DNA of 41,439 nt from Candidatus Halobonum tyrrellensis G22 (GTDB lineage Archaea > Halobacteriota > Halobacteria > Halobacteriales > Haloferacaceae), in assembly GCF_000495475.1 (NCBI RefSeq), contig NZ_ASGZ01000017.1, positions 1 to 41,439 of the forward strand, written 5' to 3'. A model generated the notes under the pieces. The model did no database searches. It saw nothing but the letters and a program-made list of their open reading frames with translations, and was not told the origin of the DNA. This document shows, in pieces, positions 2,822 through 7,238 of this stretch. The position numbers and the translations under genes were made by a program. Numbering within the stretch: the stretch's first letter is position 1; each line of letters begins with the position of its first letter.

Positions 2822-3913
2822 TCAGCGCTCGCCCTCGGTGGCGAGGTGGCTCCGCATCAGCCACCCCATGTCCGCGTGGAGGTGGTCGATATCGACGGCG
2901 TCGACGGCGTCGAGCCGCGTCTCGAACCGCTCGTAGCGGCGCTCCCACTCGGCGGCGAGCGTCGCCTCCAGGTCCGACTCGTCGATGGCGCGGACGACGC
3001 GGTCGGCGACCGCCGGGTGTTCGCCGTCGAGTCGTTCGAGGTCGGTCTCGCCGACGACGCCCTGCCGGAGCGCCTCCGCGAACAGCACCGCGGTGTGGTC
3101 GCCCTCGTGGGCCTCCCGGCGCCACGTGATCAGCCAGTTACCCAGCCGCCAGAGGTACTGGGCTTCGAGGAGGACCGGCCTCACCGTCCGGTAGGTGCTC
3201 GCGCTCATCGACGGGACGTACAGCAGGTCCGCGCCGACCGTACCGAGGATGCCGATGGCGGCCGTCTCGTACTGCCAGATCTCCCGCGGGTTCATCAGCC
3301 CGTACGACCCGTTGGCGACGCGGGCGAAGTCCATCGCCTGAAAACACGACCGGAGGTCGAACAGGTACGGGTCGCGGAGGCGGTCGTAGTTGGGCGCGGT
3401 CTCGAGTCGCTCTTCGAGCGCGCGCCAGACCCGCATCGCGCTCCGGGCGTACGCCGCGTCGATGTCGTCACGGTCGGGGTCGGAGTCGGGGTTCCACCCC
3501 GGGTACGCGACCGACGCGAGGTGCCAGAACGTCGCGGCGTCGCCCCGCTGTTCCGCGAGGTCGTCGAGCAGCGTGATGTACACGCCCGCGAGGAACTTCG
3601 TCTCCTGTGCGGTCGCGCGCCGGTCGTCCGGTACGGCCGACAGCGTCAGCTGTTCGCCGAAGATCCGGTAGATCCACTTCCACGTGAACATCGGGCGGTC
3701 GCTGAGCACGTCGGTGTCGTCGACGAGCGTCGCGAGCGAGTCGGGGAGTTCGACCGACTCGACCGCCCGGCGGTGGGCGGCCGCCTCCTCCGGGTCGAGC
3801 GAGTCGAGCAGCGTCGAACCGCGGTCCCCGAACGGGACCGGGCGGAACGCCGGCGTCTCGATGGAGCGGGTCGGGTCGCGGTTCGTCTGGGTCGTCTCTG
3901 TGGTGTCGGCCAT
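2822..3913 (-). CDS. class I terpene synthase-like protein
   Basis: 363 residues, soluble, rich in Trp, Tyr and Arg and predicted largely helical. Two metal-binding signatures of class I terpene cyclases are present: an aspartate-rich DDLAE (D117, D118, E121) and, 142 residues later, NWLITWRRE (N259, T263, E267), which fits the N-x3-S/T-x3-E pattern (NSE triad). The spacing is close to that in bacterial sesquiterpene cyclases, and an RY pair (R326-Y327) lies further downstream, as expected. A pyrophosphate-sensor Arg is not clear; R210 is the nearest candidate. If active, it would ionise a prenyl diphosphate (GPP, FPP or GGPP) in the cytoplasm. No prenyltransferase or P450 gene is adjacent. 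The family assignment is my inference from motifs; function is unproven. Confidence 0.6.
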   Translation of the reverse strand: MADTTETTQTNRDPTRSIETPAFRPVPFGDRGSTLLDSLDPEEAAAHRRAVESVELPDSLATLVDDTDVLSDRPMFTWKWIYRIFGEQLTLSAVPDDRRATAQETKFLAGVYITLLDDLAEQRGDAATFWHLASVAYPGWNPDSDPDRDDIDAAYARSAMRVWRALEERLETAPNYDRLRDPYLFDLRSCFQAMDFARVANGSYGLMNPREIWQYETAAIGILGTVGADLLYVPSMSASTYRTVRPVLLEAQYLWRLGNWLITWRREAHEGDHTAVLFAEALRQGVVGETDLERLDGEHPAVADRVVRAIDESDLEATLAAEWERRYERFETRLDAVDAVDIDHLHADMGWLMRSHLATEGER

Positions 3914-4009: not shown

Positions 4010-4375
4010 TCACGACGACCGGACCCACTCGACCGCCTCGGTGCGGTCGTTGAACGCCTTCCGGGTGACCGACGAGTCGGTCTGGATGTTCGCGTTCGTC
4101 GCCATCGCGCCGAGGCCGACCGAGACGTACGCGAACCGGTCGAGACCCGCCTCCTCGATCAGTTCCGTCCACCCGCGCTTGATGTGCTCTTGCGTCTCCT
4201 TCCCGAGGGAGACCTCCCCCAGATCCGTGACGACCCCGCGGTACTCCGCGGTGGCGACCATGTCGAGAAACTCCTGTTCGGCACCCTGGATCTGCTCCGG
4301 GTCGCCGTCCCAGCCGTCGAGGTCGATAATCAGCACGTCGCCTTCCTCGCTGAAAGATACGATATCTCGGTCCAC
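4010..4375 (-). CDS. SpoIIAA/STAS-like domain protein
   Basis: 121 residues, GTG start. A beta-strand start (DVLIIDLDGW) is followed by an alternating alpha/beta pattern and a C-terminal KAFNDRTEAVEWV segment typical of SpoIIAA-like (STAS-related) domains, in which a displaced residue range often ends in a helix of the type aF.d..eA..Wl. Such domains bind small ligands or partner proteins; no conserved phosphorylatable Ser context is obvious to me. The GTG was chosen because a TATA-like box lies about 28 bp upstream and the nearby ATG is out of frame. The terpene-synthase-like gene follows on the same strand after 96 bp, so co-transcription is possible. Confidence 0.6.
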   Translation of the reverse strand: MDRDIVSFSEEGDVLIIDLDGWDGDPEQIQGAEQEFLDMVATAEYRGVVTDLGEVSLGKETQEHIKRGWTELIEEAGLDRFAYVSVGLGAMATNANIQTDSSVTRKAFNDRTEAVEWVRSS

Positions 4376-4400
4376 AACTCCATCCGCTCGATAAGTGAAT

Positions 4401-4408
4401 AATATACT
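4401..4408 (-). promoter_or_regulatory. TATA box of the SpoIIAA-like gene
   Basis: AT-rich segment AATATACT (plus-strand reading), seen as AGTATATT on the minus strand, centred about 29 bp before the GTG at 4375. It sits within a local AT-rich stretch (4391-4440). The distance fits a leaderless haloarchaeal transcript. Confidence 0.6.
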
Positions 4409-4633
4409 TCCGGGCTAGTTATCGTAATTAGTATTTAATGCGGAAGAACCATGATCGTTCGGCGTGTCCCCGGCGGGACGCCGCCCGGCGAACCGACCGC
4501 GCGGGCGGCCCGAACGCCACTCGTCCGTCCCCTCTACTCTTGACCGCGCGGCCGCCGTACCCGTCGGTCGCTCCCGCTCGCGGTCGGCTCCGCGGACGCA
4601 ACACCCACGTGACTGGCCGTCGAACCCCCCGGC

Positions 4634-4972: not shown

Positions 4973-6091
4973 ATGACCGACTTCTCCGAGCGGGTCGAGC
5001 GGGTCTCCATCAGCGGCATCCGCGAGGTGTTCGAGATGGCCGGCGACGACGCGATCAACCTCGGACTCGGCCAGCCCGACTTCCCGACGCCGGCGCACGC
5101 CCGGGAGGCGGCCGTCGACGCCATCCAGAGCGGCGAGGCCGACGCGTACACCTCGAACAAGGGGACGCGCCCCCTCCGGGAGGCGATCGCGGCCAAACAC
5201 GACCGAGACCAGGGTGTGACGGTCGACCCCGACGACGTCATCGCCACCGCGGGCGGGAGCGAGGCGCTCCACGTCGCGCTCGAAGCGCACGTCGACGCGG
5301 GCGAGGAGGTGCTGGTCCCCGACCCGGGGTTCGTCTCGTACGACGCGCTCACGAAACTCGCGGGCGGCGAACCGGTCCCGGTCCCCCTCCGGGAGGACCT
5401 CACGCTCGACCCCGCGGCCGTCGAAGAGCGGATCACCGACGACACCGCGGCGTTCGTCGTCAACTCGCCGTCGAACCCCACGGGGGCCGTCGCCTCGCCC
5501 GACGATATCGAGGCGTTCGCGCGGATCGCACGCGAACACGACGTGCTGTGCATCTCCGACGAGGTGTACGAGACCATCGTCTTCGAGGGGGAGCACCGCT
5601 CGCCGCTCGAACACGAACGCGAGAACGTCGTGGTCGTCAACGCCTGCTCGAAGGCGTACTCGATGACCGGGTGGCGGCTCGGGTGGGTGACGGGCGCGAC
5701 CGACCGCATCGAGCGCATGCTCCGCGTCCACCAGTACGCGCAGGCGTGCGCCTCGGCGCCCGCCCAGTACGCCGCCGAGGCCGCGCTGTCCGGCCCGCAG
5801 GACGTGGTCGGCGAGATGCGCGACTCGTTCGAGCGCCGGCGCGACATCGTCTTAGAGGGGTTGGCGGACGCCGGTCTCGACTGCCCCACCCCGCAGGGCG
5901 CCTTCTACGCGATGCCGGAGGTGCCCGAGGGGTTCGTCGACGCGTGTATCGACCGCGGCGTCGTGGTCGTCCCCGGCGACGCGTTCGGCGCGAACGGCGC
6001 GGGCTACGCCCGCATCTCGTACGCCACCGGCGAGGACGACCTCCGCGAGGCGCTCGATATCATGGCCGAGGCCGCCGAGGCGGTGCGGTGA
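4973..6091 (+). CDS. pyridoxal-phosphate aminotransferase, class I/II (aspartate aminotransferase-like)
   Basis: 372 residues. Fold type I PLP enzyme: N-terminal SISGIREVFEMAG, GLGQPDFPTP (31-40), SPSNPTG (165-171, with N168), D196 and Y199 in SDEVYE, the PLP-binding lysine K227 in NACSKAYSMTGWRLGW, and GYARISYA near the C-terminus, whose Arg binds the substrate carboxylate. Length and motifs match archaeal class I aspartate/aromatic aminotransferases; exact amino-donor specificity cannot be read. The internal ATG at 4973 was chosen over the GTG at 4928 because haloarchaeal homologues begin with this TDFSERVERVS-type sequence. The next gene starts 1 bp after its stop, so the two are probably co-translated. 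Confidence 0.92.
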   Translation: MTDFSERVERVSISGIREVFEMAGDDAINLGLGQPDFPTPAHAREAAVDAIQSGEADAYTSNKGTRPLREAIAAKHDRDQGVTVDPDDVIATAGGSEALHVALEAHVDAGEEVLVPDPGFVSYDALTKLAGGEPVPVPLREDLTLDPAAVEERITDDTAAFVVNSPSNPTGAVASPDDIEAFARIAREHDVLCISDEVYETIVFEGEHRSPLEHERENVVVVNACSKAYSMTGWRLGWVTGATDRIERMLRVHQYAQACASAPAQYAAEAALSGPQDVVGEMRDSFERRRDIVLEGLADAGLDCPTPQGAFYAMPEVPEGFVDACIDRGVVVVPGDAFGANGAGYARISYATGEDDLREALDIMAEAAEAVR

Positions 6092-6092
6092 C

Positions 6093-7238
6093 GTGACCGT
6101 GACGACGCCCGCGGACCTCCGGGAGGCCATCCCGGTCACGGACGAGGTGGCGTACTTCAACACGGGCGCGACCGGTCCCGCGCCCGACCGCACGCTCGAC
6201 GCCGCCGCGGCGTGGGAGCGCGAGCAGAACGTCGACCTCCTCGCGGAGACCGACCCCTACCCCGTGAGCTTCGACGAGTACGACGCCTGCCGCGAACGGG
6301 TCGCCGCCCACCTCGGGGTCGACGCCGACGACCTCGCGTTGACCGAGAGCACCGCCGACGGCGTGAGCGCGGTCGTCGCGGCGCTCGAACTCGGAGCCGG
6401 CGACGTCGCGGTCACCACCGACCTCGAACACCCCGCGGGCACGCTCCCGCTCGCCCGCCTCGAACGCCGGCACGGCGTCGAGGTCCGCGTCGTCGACACC
6501 GACCGCGGTCGGGTCGACACCGACGCGTTCGCCGCCGCCGTCGAGGGCGCGGACCTCGCGCTGTTCTCGTCGCTGTCGTGGACCTACGGCACCCGCCTCC
6601 CGGTCGCCGAGATGGTGGACATCGCCCACGACGCCGGCGCGTTCGCGCTCGTGGACGCGGTCCAGTCGCCCGGGCAGGGACCCGTCGACTTCGGGGCGTG
6701 GGGCGCCGACGCCGTGGCCGCCTCCGGCCACAAGTGGCTGCTCGGCCCGTGGGGTACCGGCATCCTCCACGTCGCCCCCGACGCCGCCGACCGCCTCCAC
6801 CCCGCACAGGTCACCTACCGGAGCGTCGCGGACCCCGCCGCCGACCCGTACGAACTCGCCGCGGGCGCCCGCCGGTTCGAGCGCGGCACCGCCTCGATCG
6901 GACCGTTCGTCGGCCTCCGCGAGTCGCTCGACCTCCTGGAGGGAGTGGGAATGACGACCGTTCGCGACCGTATCGAGACGCTCGCGGCACGACTGGTCGA
7001 CGCGCTCCCCGACGACCGCGTGCTCGGTCCCTCGGAGCCGGAGTCGGGACTGGTGCCGGTCGACGTCGCGGACCCCGAGGCGACCGTCGAGCGCCTCCGC
7101 GACCGCGGGCTGATGCTCCGGGACGTCCCCGACCCCGCGGCGGTCCGGGCGTCGGTCCACGCGTTCAACACCGAGACCGAGGTGGACCGGTTGGCCGAGG
7201 CGCTCGCCGCCGAACCGCGGCGCGACGACGGACCGTGA
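6093..7238 (+). CDS. class V aminotransferase (cysteine desulfurase-like fold)
   Basis: 381 residues, GTG start one base after the preceding stop. It opens with VAYFNTGATGPAP, a typical class V start, followed by TESTADGVSAVV (cofactor phosphate region), D188 and Q191 in LVDAVQ, and the PLP lysine K214 in SGHKWLLGPWGTG. There is no obvious SufS/IscS-type catalytic Cys loop near residues 320-340, so a desulfurase role is doubtful; related proteins act as kynureninase-like or isopenicillin-N-epimerase-like enzymes of unknown substrate. Gene pairing with the class I aminotransferase suggests amino-acid metabolism. Confidence 0.88.
   Translation: MTVTTPADLREAIPVTDEVAYFNTGATGPAPDRTLDAAAAWEREQNVDLLAETDPYPVSFDEYDACRERVAAHLGVDADDLALTESTADGVSAVVAALELGAGDVAVTTDLEHPAGTLPLARLERRHGVEVRVVDTDRGRVDTDAFAAAVEGADLALFSSLSWTYGTRLPVAEMVDIAHDAGAFALVDAVQSPGQGPVDFGAWGADAVAASGHKWLLGPWGTGILHVAPDAADRLHPAQVTYRSVADPAADPYELAAGARRFERGTASIGPFVGLRESLDLLEGVGMTTVRDRIETLAARLVDALPDDRVLGPSEPESGLVPVDVADPEATVERLRDRGLMLRDVPDPAAVRASVHAFNTETEVDRLAEALAAEPRRDDGP

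Follow-up and report, generated by a model that had tools for sequence, protein, structure and literature searches.

What could a haloarchaeon do with a protein that carries both of the aspartate- and asparagine-based motifs of class I terpene synthases? To our knowledge, the class I terpene synthases on record come from bacteria, fungi, plants and protists, and archaeal membranes are themselves built from prenyl diphosphates. In open-licence papers we found no archaeal terpene synthase or cyclase, an absence that is no proof, and a broader literature search yielded only a report of 'terpene' clusters called by antiSMASH in haloarchaea (PMC8600319). For actinomycetes, hidden terpene synthases have been sought by structure-based mining (PMC11234867). 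The gene considered here lies in a window of 41,439 nucleotides (the whole stretch of DNA analysed, contig NZ_ASGZ01000017.1 of Candidatus Halobonum tyrrellensis G22), on the minus strand, with its ATG at position 3913 and its stop at 2822 (Table 1).

Terpene synthase motifs and their conservation

The first-pass annotation, made from the DNA and its translation, had placed DDLAE at residues 117–121 and the NSE-type residues N259, T263 and E267 further along, with 142 residues between D117 and N259, and all of these lie in the ORF exactly where it put them. Taken by itself, such a pair is uncommon and without deciding power: among 228 other called genes of 280–450 aa from comparable loci, a single one has DDxx[DE] with Nxxx[ST]xxxE 110–180 residues further on. 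What decides is the conservation of the motifs in the family.

Table 1. Features of the synthase locus (window coordinates)
Feature	Coordinates	Strand	Remarks
Class I terpene synthase-like gene, 363 aa	2822..3913	-	ORF, family alignments, predicted fold, Pfam Terpene_syn_C_2 in relatives
Codons of RY pair (residues 326-327)	2933..2938	-	R in 26/63, Y in 36/63 homologues; probably incidental
Codons of G271-D272, 3' of the NSE motif	3098..3103	-	D272 invariant, G in 56/63; alignment with 7e4n/7e4m
Codons of second metal motif, NSE type (NWLITWRRE, residues 259-267)	3113..3139	-	
Codon of R256, proposed diphosphate-sensor Arg on the NSE helix	3146..3148	-	Present in each of the 63 haloarchaeal homologues
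Codons of first metal motif (DDLAE, residues 117-121)	3551..3565	-	
121-aa gene upstream of the synthase gene, 96-bp gap, probable operon partner	4010..4375	-	Counterpart in Halomicrobium katesii-type locus
AT-rich stretch (TTAAATAC, TATATTATTC) upstream of the 121-aa gene	4388..4440	-	Likely promoter of the gene pair, as read from the sequence

Thirteen positions are invariant across 63 haloarchaeal homologues (R73, W78, W80, V94, D118, D229, R245, R256, N259, W260, W264, E267 and D272), and the remaining motif residues vary little: position 117 is Asp in 60 sequences and Asn in three, position 121 is Glu in 56 and Asp in seven, and position 263 is Thr in 62 and Ser in one, the latter being an allowed substitution in NSE motifs. 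Few positions in the family are as strongly conserved as these two motifs, which removes the possibility, raised by the first-pass annotation against its own reading, that their residues would prove unconserved. The residue that follows the NSE asparagine, where an optional Asp could stand, is Trp (W260), which counts against the terpene synthase reading. The RY pair that had been listed as a supporting feature is present in the query and loses that role through its scattered occurrence among homologues (Table 1); RY pairs are common in bacterial terpene synthases without defining the class.

R256, three residues before N259 in all 63 haloarchaeal homologues, is the likely diphosphate sensor as judged from the alignments, a helix-H type Arg on the NSE helix instead of the usual helix-G Arg; no conserved Arg was found in the helix-G region of the haloarchaeal family alignments. 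A divergent subfamily from one non-haloarchaeal family (L132–L135, L137, L138 and L140) keeps a DDSCD-like motif and NxxxTxxxE and has Met in place of R256, and its members possibly employ another diphosphate sensor.

Predicted fold and affinity to class I diterpene synthases

The AlphaFold model built with 30 sequences had a pLDDT of 88.5 and a pTM of 0.86, and the one built with 76 sequences, after removal of the disordered N-terminus, reached 93.9 and 0.92 and displays an all-alpha isoprenoid-synthase fold. In Foldseek comparisons with the PDB, the first model retrieved class I terpene synthases interspersed with prenyl-diphosphate synthases, and with the second, two Streptomyces type I diterpene synthases came first, one of them hydropyrene synthase. 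The leading matches have E-values of 2e-4 to 6e-4 and TM-scores of about 0.5–0.6 (0.50–0.58), with large rmsd, so that the fold class is secure without close kinship to any single structure. For instance, hydropyrene synthase (PDB 8b4l/8b4m), itself a class I diterpene synthase, leads the structural matches of the second model, whereas it shares only 14–16% identity with the query (TM about 0.5–0.57) and is absent from the matches of the profile sequence search. A fold other than the alpha-helical terpenoid one, which the first-pass annotation had named as the outcome that would overturn it, was not obtained.

Single-sequence annotation tools were silent on the query: it had no match in Pfam or NCBIfam even at an E-value of 10, and nothing meaningful was retrieved from PDB sequences, so that the earlier motif reading went further than these tools. 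Its relatives match Pfam Terpene_syn_C_2 (PF19086), 21 of 30 family members within an E-value limit of 1 and 36 of 76 within one of 0.001 (best 2e-8); one paralogue in the source genome scores above the Pfam cut-off, and Terpene_synth_C is matched weakly by nine of the 30. The query family sits at the edge of the PF19086 model, and the PF19086-positive relatives may already carry automatic terpene synthase labels.

The profile search proposed by the first-pass annotation leads to Terpene_syn_C_2 and, among solved proteins, to a class I diterpene synthase. The best PDB matches of the family profile, at borderline E-values, were Sat1646 (0.14, then 0.01) and Stt4548 (0.58), and a larger-family profile returned Sat1646 and a plant terpenoid synthase as best matches. 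The alignment pairs RiGNWltTWErEl..GD of the family with RLSNDLASYERDI..GD. In a profile–profile comparison with the Sat1646 group (Sat1646, Stt4548 and two actinobacterial relatives), the two profiles were colinear from DDxxE to the GD motif over 156 columns at 16% identity, with a probability of 84.5% and an E-value of 7e-6, which is rough, as in any one-against-one comparison.

Sat1646 and Stt4548 (PDB 7e4n and 7e4m) are class I diterpene synthases (isopimaradiene) in which the sensor Arg, Arg220 and Arg236, respectively, precedes the NSE Asn by three residues on helix H, whereas other bacterial enzymes use a helix-G Arg (PMC9814573). The archaeal family has in common with them the all-alpha class I fold, the first Asp motif, the NSE motif and the GD that follows it ('SGD' and 'AGD' in theirs), and archaeal R256 occupies the place of Arg220/Arg236. 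The latter agreement, which was not sought by the first-pass annotation, is independent support for the enzyme class. The archaeal proteins differ in having N-W where the two bacterial enzymes have N-D, in a longer N-terminus and in that no class II cyclase partner was found. Overall, the gene product is very probably a stand-alone single-domain (alpha) class I terpene synthase, representing a so far unnamed archaeal family; the family is new, and the kind of enzyme is an already known one. Of the original proposal of a 'terpene cyclase or relative', the kinship to class I terpene synthases stands on fold, motifs and profiles, and the cyclase part is what we infer.

Proposed activity and substrate

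From the results obtained directly (homology, fold, conservation of catalytic residues, distribution and context), we infer metal binding, substrate, cyclisation and product. D117, D118 and E121 would hold two Mg2+ ions and N259, T263 and E267 a third; the metal motifs and R256 would jointly bind the diphosphate group of a prenyl diphosphate and cause it to leave. The resulting allylic cation would react in the helical pocket, and its quenching would yield a terpene, either a hydrocarbon or an alcohol. Most likely, the substrate is a prenyl diphosphate, with GGPP as the best guess and FPP or GFPP as alternatives: GGPP is abundant in archaea, the source genome carries two polyprenyl_synt genes, and no match to a class II cyclase (SQHop_cyclase_N, PF13249) was found in it. 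Cyclisation of GGPP has, in our judgement, about an even chance of being the actual reaction.

The motifs indicate ionisation and are silent on cyclisation, and the product is unreadable from sequence; the same class I chemistry could accordingly end in a linear terpene alcohol or alkene, or in prenyl transfer. We regard this outcome, which is a sub-case of the class I terpene synthase assignment and not additive with it, as unlikely, given that the nearest characterized profile relatives, Sat1646 and Stt4548, make ringed products, albeit starting from a substrate with two rings (PMC9814573).

A chain-elongating isoprenyl diphosphate synthase, possibly a degenerate one, would belong to the same fold superfamily and have the same type of first Asp-rich motif, and many such enzymes appear in the Foldseek list with scores nearly equal to those of the class I diterpene synthases. 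However, the second motif of the haloarchaeal members is of the NSE type, with no second DDxxD; polyprenyl_synt (PF00348) and SQS_PSY gave no matches among the family members tested (30 and 76); and the profile–profile comparison with haloarchaeal polyprenyl synthases yielded a probability of 3% over an unrelated stretch. Two polyprenyl synthases are, moreover, already at hand in the source genome. This makes chain elongation a very unlikely function, and the prenyl diphosphate synthase identity was rejected on the profile–profile comparison and the absent polyprenyl_synt matches.

Distribution and paralogues

In a single-sequence search, 54 of the 195 genomes from the source organism's order were found to carry homologues, and a profile search detected them in 87 of 292 Halobacteria genomes and found more in several other Halobacteriota families, whose carriers would, judging by their phylum, be methanogens or their kin. 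The distribution is patchy, and the family is multi-copy. Homologues with in-frame stop codons occur at two loci (L010 and L023), fitting a dispensable, patchily distributed gene. In RefSeq/GenBank plasmid records, haloarchaeal copies are labelled 'hypothetical protein'.

The source genome itself encodes two paralogues that are 29–32% identical to the query (L003, 1447–2427, and L004, 1492–2466). Both have NDLSD where the query has DDLAE and retain an intact NSE motif; a changed chemistry is possible for them, going by the substitution.

Among the genomes searched, that of Halomicrobium katesii encodes the closest relative, 71% identical to the query. The synthase and the 121-aa protein encoded upstream of it are both found in the H. 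katesii-type locus, where they are 71% and 62% identical, respectively, to their counterparts; the two genomes come from separate families. The presence of the pair in two families, taken with the tree, suggests that the two genes were moved together by lateral transfer. In the window, the two genes are separated by 96 bp of GC-rich DNA. The 121-aa protein has no relative in Pfam or the PDB, and its homologues were found in five other genomes of 117 searched, mostly away from a terpene synthase gene. Given this rarity and the location of most homologues on other contigs where the genes co-occur, the protein is no general partner of the synthase. Judging by its sequence (C-terminal F.D..EAVEW), it may adopt a small STAS/SpoIIAA-like fold. 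Elsewhere in the window, on the plus strand at 4973–7238, there are adjacent PLP-enzyme-like genes, the first predicted to be aspartate aminotransferase-like and the second class V-like.

Genomic neighbourhoods

We surveyed the immediate neighbours of about 60 synthase gene copies. BAT/HTH_10 regulators account for 11 of 59 upstream neighbours, FilR1-like regulators for nine of 57 downstream neighbours and PAS proteins for 18 of 116 neighbours with both sides pooled; DUF7344 and HalOD1 proteins are also found directly beside synthase genes. Among 107 control genes five places away, there were two HTH_10 and two HalOD1 proteins. The corresponding enrichment of regulators has Fisher p-values of about 2e-4 to 1e-3, which are overstated through the kinship of the loci. 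No recurrent terpene-tailoring enzyme was seen beside these copies. In one genus (f4 g31; L083 and L086–L088), the synthase gene is found in constant order between a BAT-type regulator/HalOD1 gene and a 2-isopropylmalate/homocitrate synthase-like gene.

The enrichment in BAT/PAS/GAF/HTH_10, FilR1-like and HalOD1 proteins would also suit a non-enzymatic sensor or regulator that binds prenyl diphosphates in a retained terpene synthase pocket, as would the occurrence of NDxxD as the first motif in three sequences. Nevertheless, nearly all members retain every Mg-binding position that ionisation requires, which binding alone would hardly demand, and biosynthetic genes ordinarily have adjoining regulators; a purely sensory role is therefore very unlikely. 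The least probable alternative is that the substrate is copalyl diphosphate supplied by a class II cyclase, as for the closest solved relatives Sat1646 and Stt4548 (PMC9814573), a plasmid-borne relative of which in Micromonospora adjoins a prenyltransferase/squalene-oxidase-repeat gene: in addition to the missing SQHop_cyclase_N match in the source genome, there are only weak ones in three of the 195 relatives' genomes, and the one neighbour of this kind, a 'squalene oxidase repeat' protein in Halobellus limi, lacks DxDD and matches sugar-enzyme models. The latter protein, annotated as 'prenyltransferase/squalene oxidase repeat' (L171, 7117–8274, minus strand), was for these reasons rejected as a class II cyclase and is probably misannotated.

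Implications for archaeal terpene chemistry

Returning to the class I terpene synthase assignment, a family of 'hypothetical proteins' in which a class I fold goes with conservation of the residues for binding metal and diphosphate implies that archaea probably make terpenes that have so far escaped identification. More tentatively, and somewhat short of an even bet, we envisage an old, regulator-controlled family of terpene cyclases in Halobacteria and several other Halobacteriota families that would draw directly on lipid precursors (GGPP, perhaps C25 GFPP), with archaeal terpenoid products that might, under BAT-type control by light or oxygen, act as signals or volatiles. The presence of the family in about 30% of the sampled Halobacteria would make archaeal terpene chemistry testable in genetically tractable haloarchaea.
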